From Thuidium tamariscinum (Eukaryota; Streptophyta; Bryopsida; Hypnales; Thuidiaceae): a DNA stretch of 64,000 bases. The notes beneath the pieces are model-generated. The model was not told the DNA's origin and made no database searches. It worked only from the letters and a program-made list of their open reading frames with translations. The first letter of the stretch is position 1, and each line of letters begins with the position of its first letter. The position numbers and the translations under genes are program-made. The stretch spans positions 8,391,598-8,455,597 of the forward strand of contig OX344756.2 of assembly GCA_947034885.2 (NCBI GenBank), in the 5' to 3' direction. This document shows, piece by piece, positions 13,906-61,039 of this stretch.

Positions 13906-14120
13906 CACTAGTAGAAATCCCCATTTAATGTAACAAAGCCTAATTTTTCTTGACGGATTTTGCTAGGCATCAAAAGTAAAACCCGTGTTCTTATGTCAGC
14001 ATTGATGTTGTGTTGAACGTTTTTGTTGACATAAAAACATAGGTTGTTACTTTTGATGCCTAGCAAAATCCGTCAAGAAAAATTAGGCCTTGTCAGATTC
14101 AACGGGGGTTTCTACTAGTG
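13906..14120. mobile_element. CACTA-type MITE, 215 bp, 3-bp TSD
   Basis: The ends are CACTAGTAGAAATCCCC and GGGGGTTTCTACTAGTG. ACA flanks both sides (13903-13905 and 14121-14123), the 3-bp duplication expected for CACTA (En/Spm) transposons. The interior is itself a long inverted repeat: about 45 bp from 'gcctaatttttcttgacgga' re-occurs as its complement before the right end. The transcript would fold into a near-perfect hairpin. No coding capacity. Confidence 0.9.
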
Positions 14121-22052: not shown

Positions 22053-25000
22053 TTAATGATCAATTCGTGAAGAGTCTCGTCCAAAAAATGCCTTTTTAGT
22101 CCAATCAAAAACAACCAATGTTCGTGTGCGCCAACTTACCTGCTTACTAGCATACACAGAATACCAAAGCCATTGAGTACTACAACCAATAGACACCCAA
22201 TCTCCAGGGAGCTCATACGCTGCTTTTTCACCACCTAGAGGAGCAAATTGTCCAAAATGTCTATATTGAAAGGGTTGAAATCTATGTCGGCCCTTCCCTC
22301 GAATGCGCATTGGACCCTCTGGAACTACATTGTTGCAAACTTCAGCTGCCATGTGATTGAAGCAATGTGCTAGATACTCTCCTTGTTGAGCTGCAACTTG
22401 AGCTGTAGCTGGCATTGATTTCATTTGGCTATCAACCTGTTATTTTGTTCATATTGTTAACACAACTACATCGTTGTGAAGTATTTATTTTTAAATTTAA
22501 AAAAAAATCATTTATGAAATTTATATAAACCAAAATATTCATTAAAGTACACAAGTTGGAAAAATAGAGTAGAAGAGTTTGAATAGTATAAGATGAAGAA
22601 TGGATGACAATTAGATTATAGAAGATAGAATGGAAACAATATAGGGAGTTTTGTTAAAATGGTAGTCATTCCACAACTTTGGCACTCTTACAATATATAT
22701 TGTGGGGTCTTAATTCTTAAACCTATACTAGTCTTAGATGGTTAGACAGTGTGGTTTGAAAATGGCATATGAATATCACCATTTTAACAAAACTCACCAT
22801 TAATGTAAATTACATTATATAATTTCCATCTAAGTTATTCAGAACTACCATTTGAGTGTCCCTTACAAATATGAGTAATTTCCAAATTAGTGCTAATTTT
22901 TTTGGAGAGAAATGCACTACTTTGGTTAATTTATGTAGTTTTTTGGTTAAATGTTGTGGGATAAATTTGTTTTTGTTCAAAAAGAAAATCTCGAATAATT
23001 CATTTTTTGATACCTTTTACAATTTGTTATAATTTAGATTAGCTTGAACTTCCTTAAAGGTTCTTGACTTATTTTAAATTAAAAAAACAAAAATAGTTAG
23101 AAGACTTTGACAAATATAACTTTCATTACAAAACATAACCTTGCTGATTGCTTGTTTGAAATTTTCAATATCTAGTTGTACAGAAGCTTGATGACCATCT
23201 TGTATAGCATCTGCAAGTAATCCAAGCACACCTTTCATATGTTGTCGCTCCATGTAAATGTCAATTTGAGGATACCTTTGCCTCACTTGTTCCATAACTT
23301 CTACAAATTCTTCTACTGTTAAACGTCCAGTATTACTTTTATCGGCTAGTTTGAAGAGGTATGTGACGTCTTCTACAATACGTCTTTGTTCAATAGAAGC
23401 ACAATCTCCAATTCCATATGTACCTTCACAATTCTTAATTCGAAGCCATTCATCCGTAGCCAACACCCTTCGATCACTTTGACCAATTTGATTCATGAAG
23501 TCAGAAACAACAGGTCGAGTACCAATGCCTATATTGAAACATCTATTACATTAATTTTTGATGTCATACAACAGCCATATATACAAAATTGGTCATATGT
23601 ATTTTGTGATGATTTTATTCTCATAATATAAAAATAAATTTGGAAGCCATATAAAAATGTTGTTGTAGTTAAAATTTTGACAAACTATATATAAGAGATT
23701 GGTTAATTTTAAATATTATTGTACACATATTGTATAAATATTATACCTGTAGACCAAACAATCATTCCATATGGTAAATTCACAAGCTGTCCGTTTGATT
23801 TAATTTTGAAGTCAATGGCACCTTCTTGCACTCCAAGTACTCGACAACCAGTCTTCACGTGGATGCCTTCTCTTGTAAATTTTTGCTCTGCATATTTACT
23901 AATTCGTTCATCATATGTGTTCAAAATATGGTCACCAGATTGTACAAGAGTAATCTTGACATCGTTATGTAAATGTGGATAAAGATTTAATAAATCATCA
24001 TGAATTAAATCATGCAATTCTGCTGCAAATTCTACTCCAGTTGGACCTCCACCAACAACTACAAAACTTAATAGCTTTTGCCTACAAAATTTGAAATGAT
24101 TGATTAATAATAAATATTAATTAAACTCAAAATACAAATAAATTGAACTAATAAAAAATTAGAAAAATTATTTAAAAAAAAGTGCAACATGTATGTATTA
24201 TTCAATTCAATTAAAAAAATCATCCCAATTATGGATAATTAATTTGTGTATGCTACAAATATTCTTTAATATTTTTCATATGTGTTACAAATTTATATAT
24301 GGTTTATTGGTACCCAATTATTTGTTTTAGAAGGCCTTATTCGTTATATTGAGACAAAGTGTAGTCTCAATTTTATCTTAGACTCAAAGATAAATGGTCA
24401 TAACTTTTTAATTTGGAGTCTATTTGATGATTTGAGACTTTAATATAATAATATACATAAAAACCTTTGATTGCCCAAAGGTTGCAATCTCATCTTATCA
24501 TCGACTCAATGATAAATGAGTAAATGACTAAAATTGTTTTAGGGTGAAGTCTCAAAATGTGTAAATTGTCTCATTTTAACGAATAAGGCCTTTTAGATTG
24601 AAATGCACACCTATCTTCTTTACTTAAATGTGGCAAACTTGCACTTTCAAAACAATTTTGAATGCTTTCTTTGATTTTTTCTGCATCATGCACTTCTTTT
24701 AAAAAGTGACAATATTCTTGAACTCCTTTTGTTCCAAATGTATTTGTGGTTGCACCAACTGCTACAACAAGATAATCATATTCAAGGGAAAATTCTTCTT
24801 TTCCTTGAGGTGTAACTTTAGATACATCTTTACATGTAACAATCTTTTTTACTGCGTCAATCTTAATACATTCTGCTTCAAGAAATTGTACAAGTTTTCC
24901 TTTGCTTCGTATAATCCTTCTTATAGGTTCAATGATACTTCGAGCTTCTACACTTCCAGATGTCACACTTGGAAGCAAAGGAGTAAATACAAAGTAGTTT

Positions 25001-25732
25001 CGTGGTGCTACAACATAAACATCATATAAAGTAGAATCCAAGTTTTTCAAAAAACTCATTCCTCCCCACCCTGTTCCTAATATAATTACTTTTTTCTTGC
25101 TAGTGCCTAATAGAAAATCAAATACAATAAAAATTTAGAAAATTTTCTACTAAATTAATAATCACTATAATCAAATATAATTTTGTTATTTTCTATTGCA
25201 ATATCACTCTCCATTTGAAAAATACAAGGTAATAATAATATATACAATAATTCAATGAACATGCATGGAAATTCTTGAATTAGTATAATACAAAAATTAT
25301 TATTTTTTAAATTGTATACACAATTAGTGAAGATAAAGTAATTCAAACTTCTTTAGTTTTTATATATATAAAAAAAGAGGTATATGGGATGATAATCCTT
25401 GATAATCAACCTTTTGAATTTGAGACTAAAGGTGGTTCATGAAATTGGCCATCTGCAAATACAACAAGCAAACCAACACCAAAACATCCACTTATAGCAA
25501 ATCCTAAAACCAGAGGAAAATATGGAATACTACAAGCTTTTTCTTTGCCAATGGAAAATGCATGTATAAGGAATCTTTTTAATTCTTGTTGATTTCCAAA
25601 GTTTGTTGATCTAGCGCTTTGAGTATAAAATTGGCGTATAAGTGGTTGATGATGTGAAATTGCATTTTTAGACCTTGAAGGCCTAAAGAAGCTTGCCCAT
25701 ACCCCTACCCAAAGTAGTTCTTTACGGCCCAT
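22053..25732 (-). CDS. NDB: Mitochondrial external type II NAD(P)H dehydrogenase, EF-hand (NDB) class
   Basis: This rotenone-insensitive flavoenzyme passes electrons from cytosolic NAD(P)H to ubiquinone at the outer face of the inner mitochondrial membrane without pumping protons. Five minus-strand exons join in frame with GT/AG introns: 25732-25411, 25106-24611, 24081-23747, 23528-23140 and 22436-22053, giving 641 residues. The N-terminus has a basic presequence and a hydrophobic segment (FPLVLGFAISGCFGVGLLVV). The FAD-type Rossmann motif GTGWGG is at residues 118-123. The second dinucleotide motif GGGPTG is at 283-288. GIGDCAS follows in the FAD domain. The EF-hand loop DKSNTGRLTVEE is at 447-458. 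The C-terminus contains the family-typical tryptophan-rich membrane-binding region (WLWYSVY, SWRTRT). Q320, in VQSGDHIL after the second beta strand, occupies the site known to favour NADPH in NDB1 enzymes. The first ATG (25732) was chosen because the open frame upstream lacks another. Confidence 0.95.
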
Positions 25733-26832: not shown

Positions 26833-26874
26833 GCCATAAGAAGATATTAAAAGTAGTTTTTTTATCCTCTTAGT

Positions 26875-27510
26875 TTTAATGACCTTTCATATTGACTTAC
26901 AAAAGTATCAAATTGAATTTTTAGTCTAAGTAATGTTTATTATCGTGTAGTTAAGAAGTAAGTAAAAAAATAGTTTGCAGAATATACCAATTTTAGCATA
27001 TCTTGAGAAATTGAAAAAATCTGAAATTTCTCTACAAAAATGATATTTTTTGAGTTTGATCCCAAATAATGAAATGAAGGTCCTCTACTAGTCTACTCTA
27101 GTTTCTACTCCAATTGAAATTTTGTAAAAATGTGCAATATTGAATATTTTATTGTGGTTTGGAATTTGGGTGTATTTTCAATGTGTAGAGTATTTTAATT
27201 ATAGGAAAACATGGGAATTGAGTTTACACCACAATGTTTGTCATTATAATGTACACATGTATTGAAATTTTCAGATTTTTTGAAATAATTTTCTATTTGA
27301 TATGATTTTGTCTTCAACTTTTCTTCAAAAATTCTTAGAAAAATTAGTTTACCTCAAAAAAAATCTAAATTTTTTGAGAAGCTCAGAAGACATATAGTTT
27401 CATCTTTGTACAATAAATCCAATTTTTTTCATACATATCTAGTTTCTAGAATAGCAACAAATTGAGTGATGTGCAAAGAGGCCTAAAATTAGTGGTTATA
27501 GGTCCATCCA
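26875..27510 (+). repeat. Dispersed repeat pair, copy 2 (with 2308-2960)
   Basis: Co-linear homology to 2308-2960 with many substitutions. Shared blocks include 'gacctttcat', 'cttgagaaattgaaaaaatct', 'attttttgagtttgat', 'ctagtttctactccaatt' and 'gaatattttattgt'. No terminal inverted repeats. The two copies mark an unclassified repeat family. Confidence 0.75.
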
Positions 27511-30420
27511 TTAAGGGTTAAACAATGCTACATAACACACTAACATTTTGACTAAATCTGTTTTCAACATCAATACAATATGTCAAAATTTGAGTGTCAA
27601 CACTTTGAAAATTTGATAAAAATCATGTAGTTATTCAAAGAGATTTCACACAAAAGAAATGCAAGGTATTGCCAAAGAATGCACCCCGCTTCTATGTCTT
27701 CCTAACATCCTTCTAAAGGCAAATAAAAACTACAACTATAGTATTGTCCAATGTCTTTGTTGACTTATTGGCCCCAGACTTGAGCAAAGAAGAAAATTAA
27801 CCAATCTTATGTACAAGTGAGTGTTAACACCCATCTGTGTAATGTTCAATGGCACACTAATTTATATTGGCAAGAGTGAGGACCTTCTACTTTCCAAAGA
27901 AGATAAGGGTGATTTGATGCAAAGTAAGAGTGGTAACTTTCAATGCTTGGATGCTACATTTGTTGATGCTACATTGTTGATGCCGCACACAAGGTTTTTT
28001 TGTCGCATGTGTCAAAGATTAACTAAAATTTTATTACTTAGCTATGATGAACTTTGGTAACATTAATTTGATATTGTAAAACAATTAGGCCAATTCTCAT
28101 ATAAGCTCTTTGCAATACCATATGCCATGGACATTGCATTTAGAATTGCCTCAAAGAAACTTTATTGCATTCAAGATAAAGAGAATTTTACACATATGGA
28201 AGGCATCAATGACATGGGGTTCAAGCTATTCCTTGATGCATGAGTTTCTACAACCACTCTTCTTGAGGTCCCTCATTTGTGTAAGAATTGTTGGTCCCAA
28301 TTGAATGATTCATATGTCATCTATACAATTACTTAACCAATACTTTGAAATCCCTATGTTGGAAATTTAAAAAAAAACTTTGTTACATTAATAACATTGC
28401 TATGAAGAGCTCTATTTGAATACTATTTTACAAAAAGTTTGAAAACAATCAAATATACAAAATTTGCCCTAAGAACAAATAATGTTCTTTACATTGCCTC
28501 TAATCCAACCCTATATTTATTGCACCCTTTTTTTTCAACATTTAACAAATATTATTATTCAACGTTCAATGTACTCCACTTCCTTTTTCAAACTAAATTG
28601 ATTAGTACATAGCCTCCTTTTTAACAAAGATGTATGGTCTAGATGTCACTTGGGCCAACTTTTTGGAACTTAAAGTGGGACCCTAAACAAACAAATTCTT
28701 CATATATGCAAACTACTTAGATTAGCTAAAGTTAGTTCTTTTTATTCAAGAAATCTAAACTCTAAAGATCTGCAAATTATATTGTAGACTAGAACATCAT
28801 GGTGCAAATTTTATTTTAAATCTATAAAATCAATACTACATGGAAATAAATTCATTTTTTCAAAATACATGGGACCTCAATATTTAAAAAAATTGAAAAT
28901 ATCTTTAATGTATTTATAATGAATAGCCAAAGAATAACAATGAAAAACTGATTTCCAATAGAAATCTAATACTTTATTGGTTTGAATATACATGTAAAAA
29001 TCTACATTGCTACTTAAAGTCTCTCAAGCTAAAAATTAGGTCTCAAAAGTATAAATCTTTAATGATGTTACTAGTAGCACAAAGAGAAAGGCACTAATAT
29101 TTGTTATGAATTTATCAAAAATTGAGTCAATATTATCCACTATTTTAATTTGCATTTAACATATTCAATGAAATCATCATACGTATAAGTTATCATTTCA
29201 ATTTTATGTTTTTAATCCTCTAGGGTATTTGACCCATTTCCAACCACTTAAGCAATTACACATATGTAGAATGCAGCTTTTTTGAATGCAATTTTTTTTC
29301 ATGTACAGAAATAGAATTCAAAAGGATGTCATATTTTTCAGAATTTTATTATACAAATTGTAATTACTATGAATTTTTTAGTAGAAGATTCTCTACAACC
29401 TATATCAGTAATATAAGTTGATTGCAAAACCAACCAAGGACTAGTTGCATTTATAAAAGCCTTTATTGGAACCAATCATAATGGGCCACAATTCTTTGAG
29501 AACTACACCCTACCTTCACGGAAAGAAAACAGTTTATTGATTGGAAATGGAGGCTAATCAGAAATGGGTTGCCATCTTCTAATCAAGACAAAGACCTTCT
29601 TCTTACATAAGATCAATAGAAGCCACTCCTATCACAAATGACAACTAAGAAAATTTAAGATATTCATTAGGTGCTTTTTCTATAATTATACAATATTTGG
29701 CTATTGCTATTATCCAAAATTATATTAACTTTTAATTTGTAGTTCTATGAACCTAAAACTATTATTTTTTGCAATATATATCCCTCTTTTCTCTCCCTCT
29801 ACATTAAATTCACTATAATTATTGATTATTTTATAAGAACTATAATTCTTAATAACATTTGATTGATTCATTGTTTTTCTAAATTTTAAATTTTGTAAAA
29901 GTCAAGAACCTTTACGGAATTTGTTTGTTTCACAAATTGTAAATAAAATGGAATATCCTATTTAAAGGTCACTTTATTTACATAATTAATTCACAATTTA
30001 GGAGATTGTCTATAATTTTGAAAAACTCTATGAGTTTTGTAAATGAATCTAAAAAAGTTTGATAATAGAGTGACTAAATTTGCAAAAATCAAATAAATAA
30101 AAACATATGTATTAAATAAAAGGCATTTTACAAAAATATATATAATTCATAAATAGGCACAAAGTGTAAAATTCTTTGAAGAAACAATGGAGTCATATAA
30201 CGAAGAATATTAAACATTGTGAAATATCATGGAACCCATGGAAGAAAAGAATTGAAAATTTTGAAATGGCTCTTGTCAAAACTATGGAATTCTTAATCCT
30301 ATGTTGAATGGCTAAGGTCTTTGAAAATGACTCATAAGACACTGAAGTGTTGAGTATGACCTATAAATTTGATTGATTTATTGGTGGTGATTTAAAATTT
30401 TTAATAGAAAACTCATCAAT
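27511..30420. other. Gene-free stretch
   Basis: Open frames at 27821-28060 and 28110-28304 were inspected. They have no recognisable domain and are separated by stops, so at best they are remnants of an unidentified coding sequence. The remainder is AT-rich without visible structure. Confidence 0.4.
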
Positions 30421-34300: not shown

Positions 34301-35140
34301 TCATATTTTAATATGGAGAATGACATAGTAGTGTGTAGTGCTTTATATTGGAGAAAAATTTATAATGTATAGTGATGGTGATTTCTAAGTATACAATAGT
34401 AATAATCACAAAATTACAATCCACAAAGTAGTATTAAAATCCACATTTTGAGGAATTTTGACAACAAAAACAATTGCAAAATGTTCCATTATGTATTGGA
34501 ATTTTTATAATTATGTAAAAATAAAAATTTGAAGAACTCTAATTGTAGGAATAATTTCAGATCAATGTAAAGTTTTCATTCCTTAGAAAAATCTAAATCT
34601 GTGATATATTTTGAATTCAATGTAAATTTTTAATCTATAAAGCTTTAGATCTCTCTCTATTTCTCTAAGTCTATGAAGCCCTCAATCTAAAAAATTCTAT
34701 ATCTACAATATTTTGTTGAAACATCATCTAAAGAAAAAGGATTCAAACTTCAAAAAAACAGGTGGTGGTTTACAATAGTATTGTATTTGAACATCATAGA
34801 GAGACTTCGAACCTTAATTTTTAAAGAATTGTGCTTGTGAAGTCAAACCACAAGTGACAAAATCTAATGTGTATTAACAAAAAATGTAGAGAGTGATGTA
34901 AGAGCAAAGATATATCAAGAAAGCTTACAAATTTGTGGTTAAATATTGTGTCAATAGTCACAAAATTTTGTTGAAAAATTGAGTCAAAAGCGACAAAACC
35001 ATATAATTGCTCCAAACATTGAGGAAAAACCAAAAATGAAGACTAATGAGTAAAGTTGGTAGATTTTGAACATGCATCAAATACACTTAGAGGGTGTAGA
35101 CAACCAATGTAGTCCTTAAGTCAAATGTACAATGGGGGCT
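31368..35140. other. Gene-free AT-rich stretch
   Basis: Extremely AT-rich. The open frames here (for example 32985-33179, 33303-33521 and 33749-34009, all minus) are low-complexity F/I/L-rich products of AT composition. No domain, repeat boundary or RNA gene was recognised. Confidence 0.5.
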
Positions 35141-36437
35141 CAATCAAAATGGTGTTATGGGATCTATAGTGAAAACAATTTCACCTCTGCCAACTTTGAC
35201 AGCCTCCCAAGAGCTCAAAAATCAACTTTAATACTATGAAGCTTTTTTACAAAATCATTTGTAAATTAATAACATGTATGCCAAATTTCAAGGCCAAAAG
35301 ATTTACACAAAAAATATGTTCAAAATCTACCAACTTGTGTAGTGGTGAAAAAAATTTCACTACTTTCAACTTTGACACCCTCTTAAAGATTGATTTTGGT
35401 TTTTTTTGGCATGAAATTTTTGACATGAAATAAATTCTATACTTTTAGTATGCGTGAAAATTTTCAAGGTCAAAATGTTAATTTGAAAAAAGATATTTGA
35501 AATCTCCCTGCATATATAGTTTTGAGAAAGTTTTTACAATTGCCAACTTTGACACCCTCCCAAGGGCTGAAAATTTGGTTTCTTACTATGAATTTTATTT
35601 GTGAAGTCATTTCTATGTTGATAACATGTGTTCCAAATTTCAAATTCAAATGAATTACCCAAGAAAAAATATTCAAAATCTCCAAACATGTGTAGTTGTG
35701 AGGATGAGTTTTTACATCCATGTCAAACTTTGACCCACAAAATAACACTCTACAAAGGGCTCAAAGTTTGGAAAATATATTATCAACATATAGTTGGTCA
35801 TATGCAAAAAAATTCATGTTAAATAGACAAATTTTCAGCTCTTCGAAGAGTGTCAAAGTCAGCAATAGTGAAAATTTTCTCACAACTACACATGTTCAAG
35901 AGATTTTGTATATCTTTTTTTTGGTAATTCATTTGAACTTGAAATTTGGAACACATGTTATCAACATAGAAATGACTTCACAAACAAAATTCATGGTAAG
36001 AAACCAAATTTTCAGCCCTTGGGAGGGTGTCAAAGTTGGCAATTGTGAAAACTTTCTCAAAACTACACATGTTGGGAGATTTCAAATATCTTTAAAAAAA
36101 AATATTTTGACCTTGAAATTTTCATGAATATTAAAAACATAAAGATCATTTGATGTCAAAAATTTCATACCAAAAGAAACCAAACTCAATCCTTAGGAGG
36201 GTGTCAAAGTTGAAAGTAGTGAAATTTTTTTCATTGCTACATATGTTGGTGGATTTTAAATATCCTTTTTTGTGTAAATCTTTTGGCCTTGAAATTTGGC
36301 ATGCATATCATTAACTTAAAAATGATGTTATAACAAAAACTTCATAGTAAAATTGATTTTTGAGCTCTAAAGAGGCTGTCAAAGTTTGCAAAGCTAAAAT
36401 TGTTTTTATTGTGGATTCAAAAACACCATTTTGATTG
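35141..36437. repeat. Foldback (giant palindrome) element, copy 2, nearly intact
   Basis: The element starts CAATCAAAATGGTG and ends CACCATTTTGATTG. The whole 1.3 kb is one long imperfect palindrome with its centre near 35790. Each arm has four diverged units, marked on the left by 'caactttgac' near 35191, 35368, 35544 and 35728 and on the right by the complementary 'gtcaaagt' near 35857, 36029, 36204 and 36378. The spacing is about 177 bp. Each unit also carries variants of 'aaatctccaacatgtgtagt', 'ccctcccaagggctgaaaa' and 'ataacatgtgttccaaatttcaa'. The short open frames are by-products of the repeat. No TSD was certain. Confidence 0.9.
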
Positions 36438-37352
36438 CGACCCAGTCACTATACAACTACGTACAAATATTTGTAAAAGATGATAATGAAAATTTTTGAA
36501 TTTTTTAAATAAATAAAAGATGATTCATGTATGTATTGTAGAATCCATTATTGTATGGTCATGTATTTTGTAAAATCTTCAATATTATATAATATAAACC
36601 ATTACAATTGGAATATTTGAAAAGACTACATTACAAACCAATGTAGTTGTTTAATTTGTTCAAATGTTGGTATTGGTACTTTTGAAGGAATATTTGTTTC
36701 TTCAAAGGGAATGAATGTTACAAATCAAGAATATTTGGTATTTAACTTGTAATAAAGGTCATTGTTCATACATGTGATCACTACACATGTGTATATGTGT
36801 GTATGTGTATATATATAGTGTGTGTATGTATATATATTCAATCCTTTCTATCAATATAAAATAAATTTATTCTTTTTAAAAATATTTTAAAAATATATTT
36901 TTTAAATTCTACATTATGGGTGGTGCAAAATTTTATCACAAAAAAATATTCTTTATGTATATGTCAATGCATATAAAAAATTTGGCATTGCATTTGGAAC
37001 TACCTTCTACTAACAACCATACTAAAAGTTTATAACATTCTGTATTTACTATAATAGATTGTGTACAATGCATAGATTAAGCAATTGTATTGGTTTGTGT
37101 CATAGCTTGTTTAGAATACTAATTGTATTCATCTATATGATACAGAATAGTATTGTAGTTTTTCAAAAATATCAATATATACCACACGATAGACTATAAT
37201 TTTTCTTAAATTGAACAATTGTTACCATTTACCTTACTCAAATATTTGTACTATAAATAAAATCTCCATACAATCATTTCATTTGTGCTTTTGGTGCCTT
37301 TTAAGCTTTCTAAGGATTCTTTTGGTCGTTCACTCTCATTCTGTGATTAAGG
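36438..37352. other. AT-rich spacer with a TG/TA dinucleotide tract
   Basis: Contains a mixed (TG)n/(TA)n microsatellite at about 36788-36838. Otherwise featureless, with no coding region. Confidence 0.5.
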
Positions 37353-37563
37353 GAGAGGCACCCAATGGCATCCCTGTACCCAATGCCGTCCGTTTCTAAG
37401 TCATTTATTCAAAAACAGAAATGTAGCAGGATTGTAGAGAGCTTATTGTTTTAGGTCAAAAGAAATAAGCCATGTACTACCTACCTACATTTATAGCCTA
37501 AAATGATTGTGTATTGTAGAAATGGACGGCATTGGGTACAAAGACGCCATTGGGTGCCCTCTC
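37353..37563. mobile_element. MITE-like inverted-repeat element, about 211 bp
   Basis: Left arm GAGAGGCACCCAATGGCATC followed by TGTACCCAATGCCGTCC and TTTCTA is repeated as its complement at the right end (ggacggcattgggtac ... gccattgggtgccctctc). The arms are about 48 bp with a few mismatches. The internal 'cacccaatggc' and 'acccaatgcc' words make each arm partly repetitive. No convincing target duplication, so the superfamily is unassigned. Confidence 0.7.
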
Positions 37564-40492: not shown

Positions 40493-41903
40493 GTAAAGTC
40501 ATCTTCTGCTACTTAATTCTGATCAAATTGGGTCGTTGTTTCTCTAATTCATGTGAAATTGTCGCAAGTAGATGGAAGATCTTCCACATACCAGCCACCA
40601 GCTATGTCAGTATTTGCCTGGAAGCATACTTCCAACTTGTGGCTGTTATCAAAGTATCAGGCTGCAACTAAAGTAGCAGCTTTCTGACAGGTGTAGGATG
40701 ACATTGGTACTGTAAGCATGAGTAACTTGATGAAGTCTTATCTTACCTGTTCAGGTTGCTTTCAAGATCTGGACAAGCGATTGAGCGATTTATTAATTGT
40801 TTAGGCATCTATGTACGGAAGGCTAGTAATAGCATTCCGTTACTTCGTAGGTAAAGCTTACCATATTTCTTGCTAATGTTTTTCACCTGTTCTCTTTTTC
40901 TCGTTCTGTTTGTGTGTCTAGTACTGTAGTTGTAGAAATTGCACTGTGAATATTCCAACTGGATTAGCATACTTAAAAACTTAGATAAGCTGGCTCTTTG
41001 TATGTTTATATAACATTACCACAGTACCTGCAACCGTTTGCTTTGCTTGTTTGAAGGATTTGCTCCTGCTTTGTGAATGTAGGCGTAACCCCAGCCACTG
41101 CTAGTAGCATCACAGAAGCTCAAACCGTAGTGTGCATGCTTCATGTTCTTTTGCTTACTCGCTTTACTTTCTTTCTGTCAGATTTTTGCGCAGGATGATG
41201 TGCTGCACTGAAGGGGTGACTTATTTAATTAACTTGTGTACACTAGTATAAACATCCTTACAAGGCAGCGTTAGGAATTCAAACACATCATTATTTTTGG
41301 AAGTATTTATCAATATCAAGATCTATTCAAAGCACAGGTTCTTTTAGTATTCTGTTTGTGGGGTTCATTGACAAGTCTATGCACAAAAATGTTCACTTGT
41401 TAGACTGGAAATCTTTTGGCTGGAGTAATCTGAGGAGTTGCACTTCTGGATGTTTGATTATATTGTCTTCAAGATTAGGGGTGTCTTTCATTGTAGAATT
41501 GTAATCTCTAGTTGTTGCTATGGCGACAAGCGCAGCAGTAGCTTATGGCTGTCGATGAAATTGAAAAGGCTAAGTAAGGTTCTGCAATAGAACCACAGCA
41601 TTGCTCATTCTGTGTCTGAACTTCAGTGAGTTGCATTCTAAAGTAGTAACTCTGAGTATTATTCAAGATTGACAGGACTGCAACACATGTACAATCGTTT
41701 ATTCTTGGTTAATTATAGATTCTCTGTAGAGAGTAAGAGCACCATCAATGCCTTGCTGCAAAAAAATGTGCTGAATCACAAATTTACCGGGTGGGGAGCA
41801 TGGCTCAGCCCGAAATCCAGATCCTACGCCGCTGCTCTACTTACTTTCTCGGTATTGAGGCGCTTTAAATGTTGTCTCCACCACAGCACATTTCTTATTT
41901 CTA
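40493..41903 (+). other. Possible intron/exon remnants of the 39631 gene
   Basis: GC content stays above the intergenic background up to about 41900. The frame at 41669-41953 (for example FTGWGAWLSPKSRSYAAALL) follows an acceptor-like 'attgacag' and could be an exon. It cannot be joined in phase to the exon ending at 40492, and it runs into a MITE at 41904. No firm annotation. Confidence 0.3.
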
Positions 41904-42042
41904 AGGTGGGAACACCCATTCCCATCCATGTATCCATTCCCGTCCATATGTAGCAGAGGTGCACATTTTTCTTTGAAAAATATGCACCCCTGCTACATAT
42001 GGACGGGAATGGATACATGGATGGGAATGGGTGTTCCCACCT
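41904..42042. mobile_element. Mariner-like hairpin MITE, 139 bp, TA target
   Basis: The ends are AGGTGGGAACACCCATTCCC and its exact complement, with TA on both sides (41902-41903 and 42043-42044). The two arms of about 63 bp are almost perfectly complementary (words include 'atccatgtatcc' and 'catatgtagcag'), separated by a very short loop. The near identity of the arms implies a young insertion. A TA duplication points to Tc1/mariner (Stowaway-type) mobilisation, although the terminus is not the usual Stowaway CTCCCTCC. Confidence 0.85.
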
Positions 42043-45000
42043 TAAAGCGGACTGAACACCACTTTATAAAGCCTAGTCAAACATTTGTTCAAGGCACTAA
42101 AATCTAGTGTTTGCAAAACTTTGAAGTAAAAATAAAACCTATTGAAGTTGCTAGTTTAAGTAGTTTGTATTTTTAGAAACTTCGTTTTGAAGTCTAGTTT
42201 AAGAATCAAAAACCTAATCTTGAAAATGATTGATTATGATTTTTTTATTCAAGATTTTGTGCAAGGGTGTCCATTGCAATCTTGACTTTTTGTAGTGTTG
42301 AGGGCTCTTGGAAATGAGCCTCAAATACACTAGATCTTGGAAAAAACACACATTTGAAATTCATTCAAAAAAATGTGGAGTAGATTTTGAAAAGCCATAA
42401 ATTAATTGGGTTTATGCAATCTAGGCCCTTTAACCTCATATTTTTTTGGTCACCAACTTTTTAGATTTGACCTGTGAAAAGTGGATCAAATGACTTTAAG
42501 TAACTTTCGCGGTTTTAACACCCTCATGATCAAACATTATAACCTTTCAATCCATAAAGTGATATTTTCATGTTTTCTTTTCCTAAGTGATCTCTAACAA
42601 GTCTAGTTTGAATTTGTACAATTACATTTTTTTTTAAATTGATAAAGTTTATCAAAATGTTGACTTTCTGTTGAACAAAGAGCAAATTCCTAAAAGCTTA
42701 AAAAAGGCCTTGAGCATTTAGGGGTTAAGAGTACATTGCAAAAACATTAAAAAAACCAACTACTCTTTCTGAAAAACATCATTTTTCAAAAAGGAGTAGT
42801 GAGATTGCATTGAAGGACGTGAGCATAGGCAAAAATTGATGACATGATCCAATATTCTCAAAATTGTCCAAATTCTCACAAATACTATGATTAGGCAGTA
42901 ACTGCCTCTTTTGAGCTTATTGTCATTGTCATTGTGACACTGTCACAAATTCACAATGAGCTCAACAACTAAAAGAAATTTAAAATCTAATTATTTTGCA
43001 CCCCCTCCTAATCTGATTTAAATATTAAATGTTTTATTTAAACTTTTGAAACCCCCTCCCCCCACCCCCTCTTATAATTCTCACATGGTGGCATTAGAAG
43101 AAATCTAAAGGCATAGGGCTGTTTCGGGTCTGTTCTTGAAATGGCTCCTAATGCCGTTGGTTGTTGGCAGGCCGGCTTTAATAAAAAAAAATTGGATCCT
43201 GAAATATGATAATAAGTCCAAAAACTAATTTGAAAAAAAAACTAATTACGTGGTAGGGTCGCAACCACGTAGGATTTGAGTTCACAAGGTAGAAACTACG
43301 TTTTTGCAGTCTGGGAACCCACAATCTCCTAATGCCCTCAAATTTCATCTAATGGCTTGGATACAATAAATATGGAATAAATGATATAATAACCATATAT
43401 TGTATCCATATTTAGTATATATATATATATATACGGTACTAGTATCTATATTTAATATTCATATCCAATATCCATATGTATATCCAATGGTTGTTGATTT
43501 TTCTTGAAGGGGGGTGAGATTTTTTAAAATTCAAATCCAACGACTATCGATTTTTCTGATGAGGGGTCAGAAAAATTAATCAAACAGGCTGATTGCCTCT
43601 TTTCGATACAATGTGTGTTGAAAGCACCCCCTTTGCTCCCAGTGGGACAAAACCAACAAATCCGTCACATTCATAGTCATGTGGCCATTGAATTTCTAAG
43701 AAGCATTGGTTCTTTCTCATGTGGCAGGGTTCCTTACTTTCAAATTTTTTGTGTTGATGATGTAGCCTTCCCACATATGGCCACTGATAGTCCATGAATT
43801 TGAAGGTACTGCCACACAATGATCCTCCCCCCAAGTCCTAGTGCCTGCTTTTCTGTCCAAGTCCTATACAGTGCCCTGTACTGTACTGCACTGCATTGTA
43901 CAGTGCCCTCCCCAAAAGACTGAGCTTACACCCACTTCTCCATATAGCTCAGGTCACTACCCTTGTAGATTGACACACAAACAAAGCCTTCTTACGGTTT
44001 TCAAGAATTGTACAAATTAAGTCAACCCTAGAAAGGTCCTTAGGGTTTCTCTACACAACCCATACACAACCCATACTTAGCCTCATAACTCTTCAATTGT
44101 GATTAAATATGTGAATTATAATACATATAATTATTTACATACTATCGTGACCATAACTTTACTTTGTATTGAAAAGTATTTGGTCAATGTTTTCGTGATC
44201 AAATACTACCATATTCATAATATACTATATGACCACAAAAGGCTTTTAGGCTCTTCTAGGGTTAAGCTCACAGTTGCATTCCAAAAGAATCTACAGTCAC
44301 TAATTGCCTAGAAGTAATTTAAGTTACTACAAAGCTAACTTCATTGATGAAAATTCTACTCAAAGTTTTGTATAATACAACAAGAATTGTAGAGTCAAGT
44401 GTTTGTAGCTCTCATAATTTCAAACAAAAAAGTATGTTTCACACTTGGTGTTAAAGGTGCTCCAAATTTCAACTTTCATCCACATATTGAATAGAAAATA
44501 TCACATATGTGCATATCACATGTCTATATTTCTATTTTCATTGACAATTTTGTTGATTTCATCCAAGATTTTTTATAATTTGAAGTATTCTCATGATAAA
44601 CCTTATAGTTTTTTTTACCGTTTTTAGCTACCTTATTATTTTTCTCGTGCATTCTGGCACTAGAAAGCCAAAAAAAAAGTCACGGTTGTTATTGAGGGTC
44701 TTAGGAACAAATTTAGACCTACCTTTGGACGAGACTCACATTGCAAACATCACCCCTAGTAACAAGTGTGAACATACCTAAAGACATTTTGTAACATTTC
44801 AACTTCATAATCTCTATAACTAAAGGTAGTTTGCTCTAAAAGCAACTACCAACACATAGGTACATTTAGCTTTCTTCAATGTATCAACAATGTACATTTC
44901 AAGAGGTAGTCACTTTTAGTGATCAATGCATTTCAACTTCAAAGATTTAGAACTAATTCCACAAAGGTCTAAAGAAATAAGAAATTGACTTCAGTTAGAT

Positions 45001-48382: not shown

Positions 48383-48611
48383 ATTTATGAGAGCCCATCT
48401 TCATATTAGAAATAGAGAAAGTTCAAATGACTGATTGGGACTTCCCTCCACTTCTTGGTATCACTCTAACTTGGAGAAACTTGTAGGTACTAATCAATCA
48501 TTTTCAGCTTCTCAGACTATACACTATATAATGTAAGCAAGGTCCCATATATAAGTTAGGTGTCGAAGTAGTGGCTAACTCAACATTAGAATAGCAGGTG
48601 CTACTTCTAGG

Positions 48612-48828
48612 TGACAGTACTCGTAGTGAATTGTCAATTAAATAGAGCGATCTACTAGTCACCTTAAGCTCTCTACATCTTATCCACACCTAAGAATAGG
48701 TGTTGGATATCTAATTTTATTTTTATATACTTATATAAACTATCATCTTCCCCATGCCAGGGGCAGTGGGATTCTCTTGCTCATTGGTGTTGTTTGACAT
48801 GCTTATATATTGTGCCTTCACCTTAACA
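48612..48828 (+). repeat. 5' LTR of the copia element
   Basis: Begins TGACAGTACTCG and ends CACCTTAACA (TG...CA). It contains 'tatatacttatataaac', a likely TATA region, and matches 54022-54232 closely. Confidence 0.85.
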
Positions 48829-48840
48829 TATTATCAGCAC
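48829..48840 (+). other. Primer-binding site of the copia element
   Basis: TATTATCAGCAC lies directly after the 5' LTR. This resembles the ATTATCAGCAC-type site seen next to LTRs of many plant copia elements, where a host tRNA primes minus-strand synthesis. Confidence 0.6.
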
Positions 48841-48927
48841 AAGACTCTCTCTGATCTCTCAATTGTTTATTTTAGTTTTCAATTCTCCTTTGTTTTTATA
48901 GCCTTGGCATTATAGTTTTCTCCATCA

Positions 48928-49815
48928 ATGGCGATGCCTGCAGCAAAACGCCCTAGGGAAGAAAAAGCCTATGTTCAATCGTTGCTTTTTGAGGCGTTGG
49001 AAGCTAACGGGAGAAATTACTTGGAGTGGAGCATCAATGTCAAATCGTATCTGTGTGCAGAGGGGTTGGATGGTACCTTGATGGCAAAAGGGGGCGATCA
49101 TTTGCATTTGGAACCATCATCTTTCAAGTGGAAGGCGCTTCTTATTATGAGGCGGCATTTAGACTTCTCTCTTTGACAATAGTACATTCAAATTAATCAT
49201 CCTGTTGAATTGTAGAAGCAACTCGAGGCCATATTTCACCATGAGAAGACAATTTTTCTTCCTCAAGCCCGCAACGACTAGATTCATTTGCGTGTCTTGG
49301 ATTTTTCTGACCTTTTGGCGTTCAACGCAAAACTGCATCGGATCACTGTCCAGCTGCGCTTATGTGGAGAGATAATTTCCGATGCGGAACTTATTGATAA
49401 GACTCTCTCCACCTTCCCTCCTGCTTCTGCTCTTTTAGCACAATAGTACTGCAATATGAAGTTTAAAACTCACTCTAAATTGATGTCCTATCTTTTGCTT
49501 GTGAAATAGCAACATCAACTTCTTTTGAAGAATGCTGAATCCAAGGATTCCAAGCCTGCTAAGGAAGTGCACATGGTGGAGATACCAACACGTAGGCCAC
49601 AAGACATGAAGGCGCAGTAACGGTGGAAGCAACATCAGAAGCAACAGTCTTCTTCAAAATCCAAAGATAAGTCCAAAATCTCTAACAAACCTTGTTCAAC
49701 TGATTCAAAGTTTGATGTTAAGTCTTATGATACATGCACATGTCACAAGTATGATAGGATTGGGCACATTGCTAAGGAATGTAGAGCTTCTGATTATCTT
49801 TTAAAGATTTATAAA
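48928..49815 (+). pseudogene. Copia gag remnant
   Basis: An ATG at 48928 opens a gag-like frame (82 codons; includes FEALEANGRNYLEWSINVK, typical of copia gag), then is broken by stops near 49174, 49215 and 49279. Further fragments continue to a zinc-knuckle remnant near 49730-49790 (CHKYDRIGHIAKEC). The second cysteine of the CCHC box is replaced there, so nucleic-acid binding would be impaired. Several stops read as CAA/CAG/CGA changed to TAA/TAG/TGA. Confidence 0.8.
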
Positions 49816-52800
49816 GAGTTGCAAGAACTCAAGGCCAGGCAGAGAGAGGCCCATACCCTTGATGCCCCCTCAATAGATGAGACAGACCTAGAAAATTTTA
49901 TGGTGAGCACAATAGAGTCCATAGATCAACTTGATGTAGCTCTATTGGATAGTGCGACCACAAATATGATCTTACGAGATCAAAAGTATTTTGATTTTTC
50001 TGGCCTAGCCAATTCCTGGCAAGTGTGTGGTATTACTACCATTGCAGAAAAACGGGACATGATGTTCCATAAGGGCAAGGCAACTTCGATTTTGCCTGAG
50101 GGGACCCCCCTCCAAATTGCAAAAGAAATGTATGCTCCATTAGCCCCCTAGAGCCTGATCAGCTACTAGGACCTACGGGCAAACAGAGACCACATTTTCA
50201 CCATGGTGAGGAACGGTGAAGAGGTTCTGGAGCTCAGGTAAAGACAGAGATTCCTTTCCACTCCATGTGCAGGAGCCTATGGCCTATATGCAATTCACAT
50301 CAGCGGTACTACCGGATCGGCTTTGATGAATTTAGCTACTGGAATTAAGCAACCCACGGGCTCTACTTTCTCTGTCATGTTTTCAGCCAAGACTAGATTA
50401 TAGCACAGCAGATTGGGGCACCTTGGAACTACAATATTCAGGCATATGTTGCTATTGCTAGCAAGCCATAACATCTGCCCCAACGACGCTAACAAGGTAA
50501 GGGAGTGCACTGCTTGTTCCCAAGGAAAGCTAATTAAGCGCCCCTCGAGGTGGACACTACCAACGGAGCTTCCAGCAAAGCTACAGCATTTATAAGGTGA
50601 TGTTTGTGGACCTATTACCCCTGTTTCTGAACCTTTAAGATATTTTCTAGTCCTTGTAGATGCGTTCGAGACTCATTTTGAGGTATCATTCCTTAGTACC
50701 AAAAATATGGTCTTTTCCAAGTTGTTAGCTATACTAATCAAGTACTGGGCTCATTACCCGGACTACCTTGTGAAAACTCTGAGGATGGATAATGCCCAAG
50801 AGTTTCGGTCACCGTACTTTGAGGATTATTGTGTAGCCTCTAGGATTACCTTGACCTATTTGTTTCTATATAAACGCTCTTAGCATGGCTTAGCTGAAGC
50901 ATTCATTAAGAAAATTTAGCTAATTACACGGCCACTTTTATTGCATGCAAAGCTACCCCCTACATTTTTGGGTCATGCCATTCTTCATGTCGCTACTCTC
51001 CTTGGATTCCGTCCTACTCTCCTTAATGATCATTCTCCTTTAAAGTTACTTTCGGGACAGGTTCCTAATGTTTCTCATTTTAGAACTTTTGGGTGTAGAA
51101 TATGGGTTCCCGTAGCTGAAGTACAGAGGAAAAACATTGGTAGCCATTGGCAAGAAGGGATATATGTAGGTTTTGATTCTCCTAGTACCATTCGCTATAT
51201 CTCCCCTTCCATTGGAACTCTGCAAAGAGCCTGGTTCTAAAATTGCCACTTTGAAGAAACCCATTTTCCTCTGATCTCTAACTCCAAATCCAATTCTACT
51301 TTGGAATTCCGGTCACCTAAACATTTACTCTTAATCCAGACCCTAGAAGGCTAGAACTGCCCTAGAAGACTCTGAAGTTCAAAAACTTCTTAACTTGAAA
51401 TCACTAGCTGAAAAGCTCCTTCATGGTTTCACTAATATTCCAAAGATTACTCGTAATCTACTTCCTAGAGCCACCTAGCCATCAGTTAGTATTCTTCCGA
51501 GAAGAGGAAACCTGCTCAGTTAGTATCTTCTTCCAAACAGTCAAAACTTGATCCCCTTAGCCTTCATAGTGATCTTTCTCTCGATTCTCACTTGGATCCG
51601 TTCTTTCCTTGTACCCCAAATGAAACAACCTATGTGATTACCTTTATCACTTGGATTCTCACTCCAAAATCTGATCCAACCACCTTAGCTGAAGCAAAAA
51701 CTAGATCTGATTGGCCTCAATGGTTTGATGCCTTACAAGCCAAATACCCATCTCTTAATAAACACAAAGTCTTTGAGCCCCTAAATACAAAGTTTTCCAC
51801 TAAACCCGTAGGTTTCAAGCTAATCTTCCCTAAAAAGAGGAATGCTTAGGGACATGTTGTTAGATACAAAGTCGGATTAATTGCCTAAGATTTTATCCAA
51901 CATCCCAGTCTTGATTATGACTTTACGTATTCTCCTGTTATGGATTCTGCAACATTTAGATATCTACACGGGATGGCTGTTCAGTTTGGATTAGAAATCC
52001 ATTTGCTAGATATTATTACAACCTACCTCTATGGTCTCCTAGATGCCACCTTCTATATCAGACCACCACTTGATTTTCTTAATAGTACCCCATCGGATGA
52101 CAATCCGAGATCCTATTCTGGTTTGAAAATTCGAAAAGTCCTTTATGGCCTTAAACAAGCAGATAGAATGTGGTACAAGCACCTTTGGGACTTCTTACTC
52201 CACCACATGTTCAAACATGATCCATCCCTACCTTGCATCTTTACACTTAAAAATGACACAGGGGTGATTGCAAGAAACACTTGTCCTATTTTTTGTCCCC
52301 TTGACCTCCAACAGGTAGTTTTTTGCTCATAACTTTTGCATCGTTTTCCCTATCAACTTGAAATTTGGAACGAAGGTGCACACAAAAGTTTTGTATGTTG
52401 TGTAATTTTTTCAATTTTCTTAAAATTAGTTTACTATTTTTAAATTGCCCCCAATTGGCTGTCTACCTTGGCCATTTTGGGGTTTTTTAGTCCTATTTTA
52501 GACCCAAAAATGCAAATTTTGAGCTGAAAATTGGCATGCTTATATATATAGTATAGTTACACAATCTCTAAAAAGAATTTTTGAAAATACTAAATTGTCC
52601 AGCTTCCACATGTCGTCAAAGTGGCTGACTTTGCGCAAGTGTAGAGAATAGAATTAATTTTTTCCAAAGATGAAATTTGTTGGAAAAGAAAGACCTTTAA
52701 TTGAAGAAAAAACGGATTTTTCATTTTCATTTTTTGAATTTTTGAATTATTTTTAACAAATTAGTGAAAAAAGAGCTATTTTCATTGCATTTTCCATTGT

Positions 52801-53961
52801 CTATAACATTTAGAGAAAAAATTTCTTAGGTCTGAATTTCAAGAGACATAATATTCTCATTTCTCTTCAAATTATCCATATTTTTTTCAATTTAAAAAAA
52901 AATTATTTCAAAGGGTCACAGGACTCACAGGACTCATTGATTTTGAGCCATTTTGAGCCAAAACTGGTAAGTGTTTCTTGCAACGACCCACAGGCTTTGT
53001 AGTAATTGTTGTCTATGTAGATGACCTCAATCTAATAGGCACCCCATCTACTTGTAGTCATGCTATGAGTCTCCTAACCACTCAGTTTGAGATGAAGTTG
53101 TTAGGCTAGACTTCTTTTTGCGTTGGCCTTGAGGTGATTCACTTACCAAATGGAAGTATCTTTCTCCATCAAATCGCCTATATCCGAAGACTTCTCAAGA
53201 AATTTCAGATGGACCAAGCTAGTCCTCTTTTGGCTCCCATGATGGAACGAAGTCGAACTTTGGATGACCCCTACCGTCCTTGCGAAAAGGAGGAGGAGTT
53301 TTCTAACAAAACCCGGTACCTCGCAGTAGTAGGAGCTCTCCTTTACTTGTCTACATATACCAAGCCTGATATTTCTTTTGCTACAAGTGTGTTAGCTTGT
53401 CATAGCCAAAAACTAGCAGCTCATCATTGGAACAGTGTCAAACACTTATTCCGATACCTCCGGAGGACAAAAGACTTGGGATTTTGTTATACTAAGGAGG
53501 GAACTTCAAATATCATAGATTATGCTGATGTTGGATTAAAATCCGACGAAATTACTGGGAAGTCACAAACTGGATACATATTCTTGAAGAATAACTCTCC
53601 TATTTCGTGGAAATCAGTGAAGCAGAAAGTTACTGCTACTTCCTCGAATCACTCTGAACTTATTGTTTTCCATGAGGCAACACGGGAAGCAGTATGGTTG
53701 AGGAATATGAACAAGATTATCATGGAGCAGTGCAAAATTACTCAAGACTTCAAGCCAACTATCATCTTTGAGGACAACACTGCATGTGTAGCTCAAGTGG
53801 CGTTCGGCTTCATCAAAATTGACCGCACCAAACACATTAGTCCACAGATATTTGGGTTCACCCAAGATCTCATTCAATCTGGACAAATAGAAGTCAAGAA
53901 GATAGAATCAGCACAACATTGCAGACATGTTGACCAAATCTCTTCCGGCCTATACTCATAA
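49816..53961 (+). pseudogene. Copia pol remnant (protease, integrase, RT, RNase H)
   Basis: Fragments lie in the order expected for copia pol. A protease-like LLDSATT is at about 49945, where the usual active-site glycine is missing. The integrase zinc finger with CTACSQGK is near 50500, followed by a broken integrase core and the conserved FGCRIWVPV region near 51090. Reverse transcriptase fragments at 51592-51849 and 51940-52300 are followed, after a nested transposon, by the YVDD catalytic motif at 53014-53025. The longest frame (53134-53961, 275 codons) carries the RT tail and RNase H (GKSQTGYIF, ATSSNHSEL, RTKHI). Multiple stops and frameshifts show that it is non-functional. I do not reconstruct it. 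Confidence 0.85.
52262..52989 (+). mobile_element. GGGTGATTGCAAGAAACAC-family transposon, copy B, nested in copia RT
   Basis: Left end GGGTGATTGCAAGAAACAC; right end complement GGGTCGTTGCAAGAAACAC. The target ACAG is duplicated at 52258-52261 and 52990-52993. It splits the reverse transcriptase frame just before the YVDD motif. Removing it and one ACAG copy would restore frame continuity across the site, which independently confirms the boundaries. Non-coding, 728 bp. It has the same orientation as copies A and C. Copy D (58673-59420) aligns best in reverse orientation. Confidence 0.92.
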
Positions 53962-54021
53962 AAGATTGGTACAAGAAGCTGGGATGCGTTTGTTGCATGA
54001 GATAGTTCGTCAATAGCTAGG

Positions 54022-54232
54022 TGACAATACTCGCAGTGAACTGTCAGTTAAACAAAGCGATCTACTAGTCACCTTAAGCTCTCTACATCTTATCCACACC
54101 TAAAAATAGGTATTAGATACCTACTTTTACTTTTATATACTTATATAAACTATCATCTTCCCCATGCCGGTGGGATTCTCTTGCTCATTGGTGTTGTTTG
54201 TCATGCTTATATATTGTGCCTTCACCTTAACA
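54022..54232 (+). repeat. 3' LTR of the copia element
   Basis: Begins TGACAATACTCG and ends CACCTTAACA. It aligns to 48612-48828 with about 13 substitutions and a 6-bp deletion (ccagggg against ccgg). It ends 316 bp before the GH5 start codon, so its promoter-like sequences lie just upstream of that gene in the same orientation. Confidence 0.85.
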
Positions 54233-54421: not shown

Positions 54422-54547
54422 TCACAATGAAGATGATTCAAACAGCACATCACAGATGAAAATTTAGATGAAGAAGAAGTGACGCGAAGCAAAGACCCTG
54501 CACCGTGCTGTCACTGCTGTGAGCATCAAACACCGCGAGCCCTCCAA

Positions 54548-59696: not shown

Positions 59697-60195
59697 GCGG
59701 GGTACCATTCAAAATGACATTTTTGCATTTGTAGGGAAGGAAATTTCACATCTGCTAACTTAAACAACCTCCTAAGGGTTGAAAAATTGTTTTTTTTACC
59801 ATAAATTTTTGTCAATAAGATCACCTTTAAATTAATAGTATGTATGCCAAATTTCAAGGCCAAAAAATTTATACAAATGAAGATATTAAAAATCTACCCA
59901 TCGGTGTAGCTATGTAAAAATTTTCATAGGTGCCAACTTTGACAATCTCACAAGGACTGAAATTTTTTTCTTTTACAATGAAATTTTTAGTATGAAATCA
60001 TCTCTATGTTTGTAGTATGTTTTCCAAAATTGTAAGGTTGATTTTTTTTAAAGAAAGATATTTGAAATCTATCAAAATGAGCCATTGTAAGAGACAATTT
60101 CATTGCTACCAACTTTGACACTCTCCTAAGGGTTGAAAAATCAATTTTTTACCATGAATTTTTTTAACAAGAGCATCATTATGTTAATGACATAT
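59697..60195. repeat. Foldback element, copy 3 (one arm only)
   Basis: Starts GGGGTACCATTCAAAATGAC and holds three units of the 35141-36437 type ('ctaacttaaacaacctcctaagggttgaaaa', 'caactttgacaatctcacaagg', 'caactttgacactctcctaaggg'). It stops exactly where a CACTA terminus begins at 60196, and the second arm is missing. Probably truncated by that later insertion. Confidence 0.75.
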
Positions 60196-60600
60196 CACTA
60201 CAAGAAAAGGGTGTTTTAAGTGAGTTTTTAAGTATAGTCTTAAACATAGGATTTTAAATAATGACCTTTAAGGCAATTTTCAGCAAAATTTTACTAAAAA
60301 TACATGCATTTACTAAAAAATACATGCATTTACTAAAATACATGCATTTACTAAAAATACATGCATTTACTAAAAATACATGCATTTACTAAAAATACAT
60401 GCATTTACTAAAAATACATGTCTTTACTAAAAATACATGTGTTTATTAAAAATACATGTGTTTATTAAAAATACATGTGTTTACTAAAAATACATGTGTT
60501 TACTAAAAATACATGCATTTACTAAAAATACATGCATTTACTAAAAATACATGCATTTACTAAAAATACATGTGTTTACTAAAAATACATTTAGAACACA
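60196..60600 (+). mobile_element. CACTA-type transposon end with 19-bp minisatellite
   Basis: CACTACAAGAAAAGGGTG at 60196 is a classic plant CACTA terminal inverted repeat. About 90 bp inward a tandem array begins (60290-60600). The matching right terminus ...CTTGTAGTG was not found, so the element is truncated and its true right limit is unknown. Confidence 0.6.
60290..60600. repeat. 19-bp minisatellite, about 16 units
   Basis: Units of ACTAAAAATACATGCATTT (or ACATGTGTTT variants) repeat with almost no spacing change. Two variant types occur in blocks (GCATTT, then GTGTTT, then GCATTT), indicating several rounds of local amplification. Degenerate 'actaaaaatacattta' words continue to about 60900. 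Confidence 0.92.
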
Positions 60601-61039
60601 ATTTACTAAAAATACATTTAGTAATACATGTATTAGTGAAAATACTATGTATTTAGTATACAAATTTACTATGTATTTAGAACACAATTACTATTACTAA
60701 TAATACTAAAAATTATTGTGAACACAATTTAGTACTCAATAATACTAATAATACTAAAAATTACAATTAGTACACAAAGATATTATGTATTTAGAACACA
60801 TTACTTTTACTAATAATACTAATAATACTAAAAATTCATTCAGAACACAATTTACTAAAAATACTAAAATTTTTACTAAAAATACATTTAGAACACAATT
60901 ACTTTTAGAACAGACTATCTTGCATTTTAAATTGATGTGAAAATTTTACCACACAAACTAGACTAGTTTGTACAACTTTTTCAACAACTTTTATTGAATT
61001 CCGACATAGGATGCAAAAGTTACAGCACTTCGAATTGGA

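Follow-up and report, generated by a model that had tools for sequence, protein, structure and literature searches.

Plants have foldback transposons that are known by name, such as FARE in Arabidopsis and Tnr8 in rice, rye has foldbacks too, and a foldback of the Solanaceae bears the name SoFT. The closest described relatives in design are elements that carry repeats within their long TIRs. Tetris of Drosophila virilis is described as a non-autonomous foldback with ~220-bp AT-rich tandem repeats in long TIRs (PMC4079207). In the P superfamily, the F subfamily of Galileo has long TIRs with ~210-bp internal tandem repeats (PMC3573991), and Galileo-G is reported to possess repeated binding sites for the THAP domain, the first being ~70 bp from the tip (PMC3688188). 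Tandem-TIR MULEs were found in tomato and Arabidopsis, and solo extra TIRs in rice and maize (PMC3310237). In root-knot nematodes, the Mutator/Foldback elements named Tm1 have composite TIRs that contain motifs of ~14 bp (PMC3169594). MITE and TIR sequences have also been reviewed as sources of satellites (PMC9659126).

The locus analysed here lies in a 64-kb stretch of DNA (the window) and very probably represents a family of non-autonomous foldback (long-TIR) DNA transposons with tandem repeats inside the TIRs. The family adds to a published design, that of foldback/TIR elements with internal repeats. No published paper containing any of three sequence words was retrieved, and no description of the family was present among the literature matches listed, which is no proof that it is unpublished since the subscription literature lay largely outside the search.

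The element under study, copy B, occupies 35135..36443 (no strand assigned) as judged from its inverted self-match, the unit profile and the aligned ends; the common tip sequence may extend ~10 bases beyond these limits. When 35041-36500 was compared with the window (blastn), 35135-36443 was recovered as one self-inverted match of 1344 columns with 81.7% identity and 1270 bits, versus a top self-inverted score of 44.6 bits among 200 first-order Markov shuffles of the element. The claim of the first-pass annotation that the whole element is a self-complementary foldback therefore holds over its full length. The left arm (35135..35789, plus strand; cores at 35192, 35368, 35545 and 35726) and the right arm (35790..36443, minus strand; cores at 36386, 36211, 36037 and 35860) were delimited from core positions, unit tree and profile; copy B is almost entirely inverted repeat and its unique centre is small. 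A repeat search returned ungapped arm matches of 194 nt (94%), 180 nt (79%), 99 nt (82%) and 72 nt (89%). In a global alignment of the two arms 540 positions were equal and 85 different, with 59 gap columns, i.e. 85 mismatches at 625 ungapped aligned positions. Arm identity varies from 0.75 to 0.98 per 50 columns and peaks within unit 3.

Two relatives of copy B, both absent from the first-pass annotation, were detected by blastn in the same window. Copy A (1..~773, no strand assigned; blastn, aligned ends, unit profile and unit alignments) is truncated by the window edge, beyond which its left tip lies. It consists of units 1 to 3 (U1-U3) and the start of U4 of the left arm, followed by an inverted U4 and by the inverted U1 of a right arm that is shortened, U2-U3 being missing; the inverted stretch is 88% identical to left unit 4 of copy B over 100 bases. 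Copy C (59706..60195, plus strand) comprises left-arm U1-U3 and ends at a CACTA-like end. No piece of a second arm was detected downstream of it within the window (blastn, E 0.001; unit profile, E 1) and copy C, with one arm visible, is a candidate foldback.

The sequence adjoining copy C, CACTACAAGAAAA (60196..60208, plus strand, located by motif), is presumably a CACTA-transposon end. Behind this CACTA-like end, in the stretch 60196-60900, a 19-bp unit is tandemly repeated 15.8 times (60290-60590), and weak candidates for the other end, each with 2 mismatches, occur at 61837 and 63817. Other palindromes of the window include one of 215 bp at 13906-14120 (83%), flanked by ACA at either side, which from its CACTAGTAGAAA/TTTCTACTAGTG ends we take to be a CACTA-type MITE, and one of 152 bp at 8647-8798 (80%), flanked by TTA at either side, which from its ends of GGCCCTGTTTAC type we take to be a Tourist/Harbinger-type MITE. 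Two further short palindromes are at 41902-42044 (95% self-complementary) and 37353-37563 (70%). A 0.66-kb direct repeat with 73% identity, 2284-2945 and 26854-27517, is a dispersed repeat.

Besides a terminal segment, each arm of copy B contains four units that are ordered and diverged, each of ~177 bp, a length that is satellite-like. The AACTTTGACA-type cores follow one another at 176, 177 and 181 bp in the left arm and at 175, 174 and 177 bp in the right arm (174-181 bp overall), once off-register matches of the loose core pattern at 35224, 36395 and 36354 were set aside; the spacings are 176 and 172 bp in copy A and 178 and 176 bp in copy C. The four units per arm proposed initially were thus recovered, and the left-arm core positions given with them proved correct to within 2 bases. 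The first core of copy B, of the AAATTTCA ... CCAACTTTGACA type, lies 57 bp inward from 35135. Units are 42-97% alike in pairwise comparison and the tip sequence of the arms is not repeated within the inner units. The innermost pair of copy B is equal at 79 of 106 positions, its left member having a 12-base insertion within the core. In the left arm of copy B, the parts of units 1 and 3 downstream of their cores are 77.8% identical over 162 columns, possibly a trace of an earlier stage with two units.

Both core and unit are confined to the three copies within the window. Allowing up to 2 mismatches, a 14-base core occurs 12 times in the window (0.32 expected), each time inside copy A, B or C and 7 times in copy B. 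A profile built from 15 units gave 17 window matches, all in the three copies; it gave none elsewhere in the window and, with E up to 1, none in the reversed window. There is, by this profile, no longer unit array and no lone unit in the window. An 18-base core was also found, exactly, in 14 prokaryotic contigs, and 10 of these 14 scored 8.1-17.3 bits with the unit profile, over short stretches around the core match; 3 of them score higher than the weakest window match (14.1 bits, 521-571). We rejected these contigs as relatives: having been chosen by the core word, they are word matches and provide no fair control, the control being the reversed window with its 0 matches. Three patterns gave no match in viral contigs, and no RNA family reached its gathering threshold anywhere in the window.

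The phylogeny of the units was analysed next to their position in the arms, with 15 units in the tree (right unit 4 of copy A was left out). Unit 1 from both arms of A, both arms of B and C formed one group (SH-like support 0.998), as did unit 2 of A-left, B-left and B-right (0.994), unit 3 of the same three arms (0.910) and unit 4 of the two B arms (0.842). The ultrafast supports from IQ-TREE for the U1, U2, U3 and U4 groups were 100, 98, 81 and 70, respectively, and a group of A and B unit 1 without unit 1 of C had a support of 80. Units 2 and 3 of copy C were loosely placed (0.262 and 0.852, SH-like; 54 and 81, IQ-TREE), so copy C joins the grouping by position only at unit 1. In 13 of 15 cases a unit is nearest to one that shares its position number, an agreement reached by 0 of 10 000 label permutations, in which it has to be considered that the units are not independent; the exceptions, unit 4 of B-left and unit 2 of C, are both nearest to unit 3 of B-right. 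Since units group by arm position across the arms and across copies A and B, the ordered array is older than the parting of A and B. The tree fits the suggestion, made in the first-pass annotation, that the element grew by duplicating units and was then copied in mirror image; an alternative order, in which an early palindrome had its arms homogenised later, is also compatible with it.

The arms within a copy are more alike than the copies are among themselves. For U1, agreement was 85/87 between A-left and A-right, 142/169 between B-left and B-right and 113/162 between A-left and B-left. The simplest reading is that the arms of each copy were alike at insertion and that A would have inserted more recently than B. 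The distribution of CpG was also analysed. In the U1-U3 alignment (U4 left out) 9 columns have a CpG in some unit, and 5 of these have it in A. B-left, B-right and C together have 15 cells at these 5 columns, of which 11 contain TG or CA, 4 TA and none CG; TG/CA in B and C at the CpG sites of A is the mark that methylated CpG is expected to leave on decaying. In the remaining 4 columns, with CpG in B or C, there is no such pattern, few of the 8 readable cells of A or the other arm being TG/CA. Observed versus expected CpG counts were 3 versus 29 in B, 1 versus 9 in C and 9 versus 19 in A. Values as low as that of B were found in 36 of 576 other stretches, and in 36 of 338 when GC was below 0.33. 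Low CpG is thus not peculiar to B, so past methylation is likely but not proven.

The arms of copy B do not differ evenly along their length. They are most alike in unit 3 (35485..35661 in the left arm, plus strand), where 164 of 177 aligned positions equal the right arm; differences number 13/177 there versus 72/448 elsewhere (Fisher P = 0.004, for a segment picked after viewing the profile). The likeness of A and B by unit follows the order U3 (0.85-0.87), U2 (0.80) and U1 (0.70). Any one of three processes could produce this pattern: conversion between the arms, constraint, or rapid change in the terminal unit. Gene conversion at unit 3 was not retained as an explanation, because the segment was defined post hoc and U3 is also the unit most alike between A and B, which constraint or unit age explains equally well. 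A more elaborate model, which we regard as quite unlikely, would have the arms composed of four ordered, position-specific units of nucleosome length, each with a transposase site, U3 being kept uniform by gene conversion in the hairpin and the terminal unit diverging fastest between subfamilies.

As to the identity of the element, long inverted repeats form most of it, tandem repeats lie inside its arms, and dispersed copies with common ends were found in the three window copies (one arm in C, left tip off the window in A). These features agree with the foldback transposon with modular arms that had been proposed. A coding repeat was considered (177 = 3 x 59, with a 139-aa frame at 35708-36127) and rejected: 16 of 1000 Markov shuffles reach 139 aa (up to 207), open frames do not exceed 77 aa in A and 62 aa in C, the spacings 172, 175, 176, 178 and 181 are not multiples of three, and the Pfam match is sub-threshold, at 15.8 bits versus a cut-off of 84. 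No transposase was found among the 10 window ORFs scanned for domains, one of them inside copy B. Copy B is most likely an old, non-coding, decaying relic. The family may have spread by transposition. Because copy B is without recognisable coding, mobilization was probably in trans, with an autonomous relative supplying the transposase, for which the unit core AAATTTCA ... CCAACTTTGACA would be the best candidate for a repeated binding site.

The window also contains coding sequences. The minus strand at 22056-25134 bears exons of an EF-hand NADH dehydrogenase of the NDH-2 type (Pfam NDH2_C, EF-hand_7 and Pyr_redox_2), and at 54437-55579 there is a reading frame of glycosyl hydrolase family 5 (cellulase; Pfam PF00150). 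An EF-hand NADH dehydrogenase and a GH5 enzyme are gene content associated with plants. At 48607-54232, direct repeats (48607-48828 and 54017-54232, 91%) surround open frames that by eye resemble Ty1/copia gag, integrase and RNase H; this is likely a broken LTR retrotransposon. Of its frames, the one compared with Pfam (53110-53958) had no match at E 0.01.

The homology of the three copies stops at or near the same tip. Four ends are visible, and both ends of a copy are in view for B alone. Aligned on TCAAAATG, all four share TAYARYG, GGG and TCAAAATG in this order, with GGG and TAYARYG outside; the right end of B has a 2-base shift in the shared tip order. The flanks were scanned for target duplications of 3-12 bases (matches listed for 4-12), with 400 random flank pairs as a control, and no target-site duplication clearly exceeded random flanks. 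With boundaries left free (7 x 7), the best 9-base match was 7/9, which 44/400 random pairs reach, and the best 8-base match was 6/8, which 84/400 reach; with a wide boundary grid, 276/400 (9-base) and 173/400 (8-base) random pairs match.

The foldback family may belong to the MULEs, to the Tc1/mariner type or to another superfamily. A tentative possibility is a MULE with repeated TIRs, 9-bp target duplications and a MULE transposase. It accords with the long TIRs, with the tandem-TIR MULEs reported in tomato and Arabidopsis (PMC3310237) and with a 9-base candidate duplication around B, AATGTACAA/ACTATACAA (7/9). However, random flank pairs attain this 7/9 score at the frequency just given (44/400), and the tip here is unrepeated in the inner units, whereas tandem-TIR MULEs are reported to duplicate the entire or almost entire TIR. 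An element of Tc1/mariner or pogo type is unlikely; its target would be TA and its tips would read TA/CAGTGGGG, the boundary falling between TA and CAGTGGGG. By eye, TA lies directly outside CARTG/TAGYG at all four visible ends, with the boundary chosen after viewing, and CAGT-type tips occur in Tc1/mariner/pogo-type elements. A TA target site is common to the superfamily (PMC7325037), but the words CAGT and Emigrant do not occur in that paper. Moreover, TA is frequent in AT-rich DNA, the post hoc boundary has no control, and the right end of B needs the 2-base shift.

The whole of copy B is predicted to fold as RNA at -731 kcal/mol with 564 of 564 pairs linking arm to arm, while 8 other window stretches of the same length gave -181 to -391 kcal/mol. 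The first-pass suggestion that read-through would yield a long double-stranded RNA stands in its structural part. It is very unlikely that the hairpin has been retained to supply long dsRNA for silencing the family in the manner of Mu killer, for which a hairpin RNA arising by read-through from a neighbouring gene is proposed (PMC3440606). The very stable predicted fold and the CpG to TG/CA differences of A versus B and C would suit such a role, but the arms of B differ at 85/625 positions and by 59 gap columns, as in a decaying relic. Finally, rearrangement of 177-bp satellite fragments head to head without a transposon is hardly credible, since despite the satellite-like unit length and the satellite arrays to which Tetris repeats are reported to have given rise (PMC4079207), the units are ordered and position-specific across copies, the tips are common, and the window has neither a longer array nor a lone unit, and no long head-to-tail array of interchangeable units.

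Considered as a foldback transposon family, these copies would show, by the order of their units, how foldback arms grow, the array having been built before A and B parted. The uneven arm identity offers a place to look for conversion between arms, and the 177-bp unit is a possible satellite seed, as reported for Tetris.

Modular arms had initially been thought unusual for plant foldbacks; this view is weakened by the tandem-TIR MULEs of tomato and Arabidopsis and by the ~210-220 bp TIR repeats of flies, as far as these are described in the available texts. Like Tetris, in which the repeat number is variable, the family is a non-autonomous foldback with tandem repeats within long TIRs and no apparent coding capacity. 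In Tetris a flanking domain, up to 866 bp long, lies beyond the repeats, whereas here the units start almost at the tip; it has 8-10-bp target duplications, whereas here none clearly exceeds random flanks; and its repeats are ~94% alike, whereas the units here are ordered and 42-97% alike. The long TIRs with internal tandem repeats are also a likeness to Galileo, the first core here being 57 bp inside 35135. However, Galileo is an animal element with a known P-superfamily transposase, whereas here the 10 scanned ORFs contain none and the binding sites are candidates. With Tm1 the family shares composite foldback-like TIRs with internal repeats, the repeats of Tm1 being ~14 bp long and accompanied by 9-bp target duplications and, in some copies, a putative transposase. 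Tandem-TIR MULEs are likewise plant DNA transposons with repeated units within the TIRs, and their external and internal TIRs are reported to group apart, with low bootstrap (PMC3310237). They are described as having two near-complete TIRs at each end around an internal region, and target duplications, whereas the family described here has four units per arm, an unrepeated tip and little internal region.
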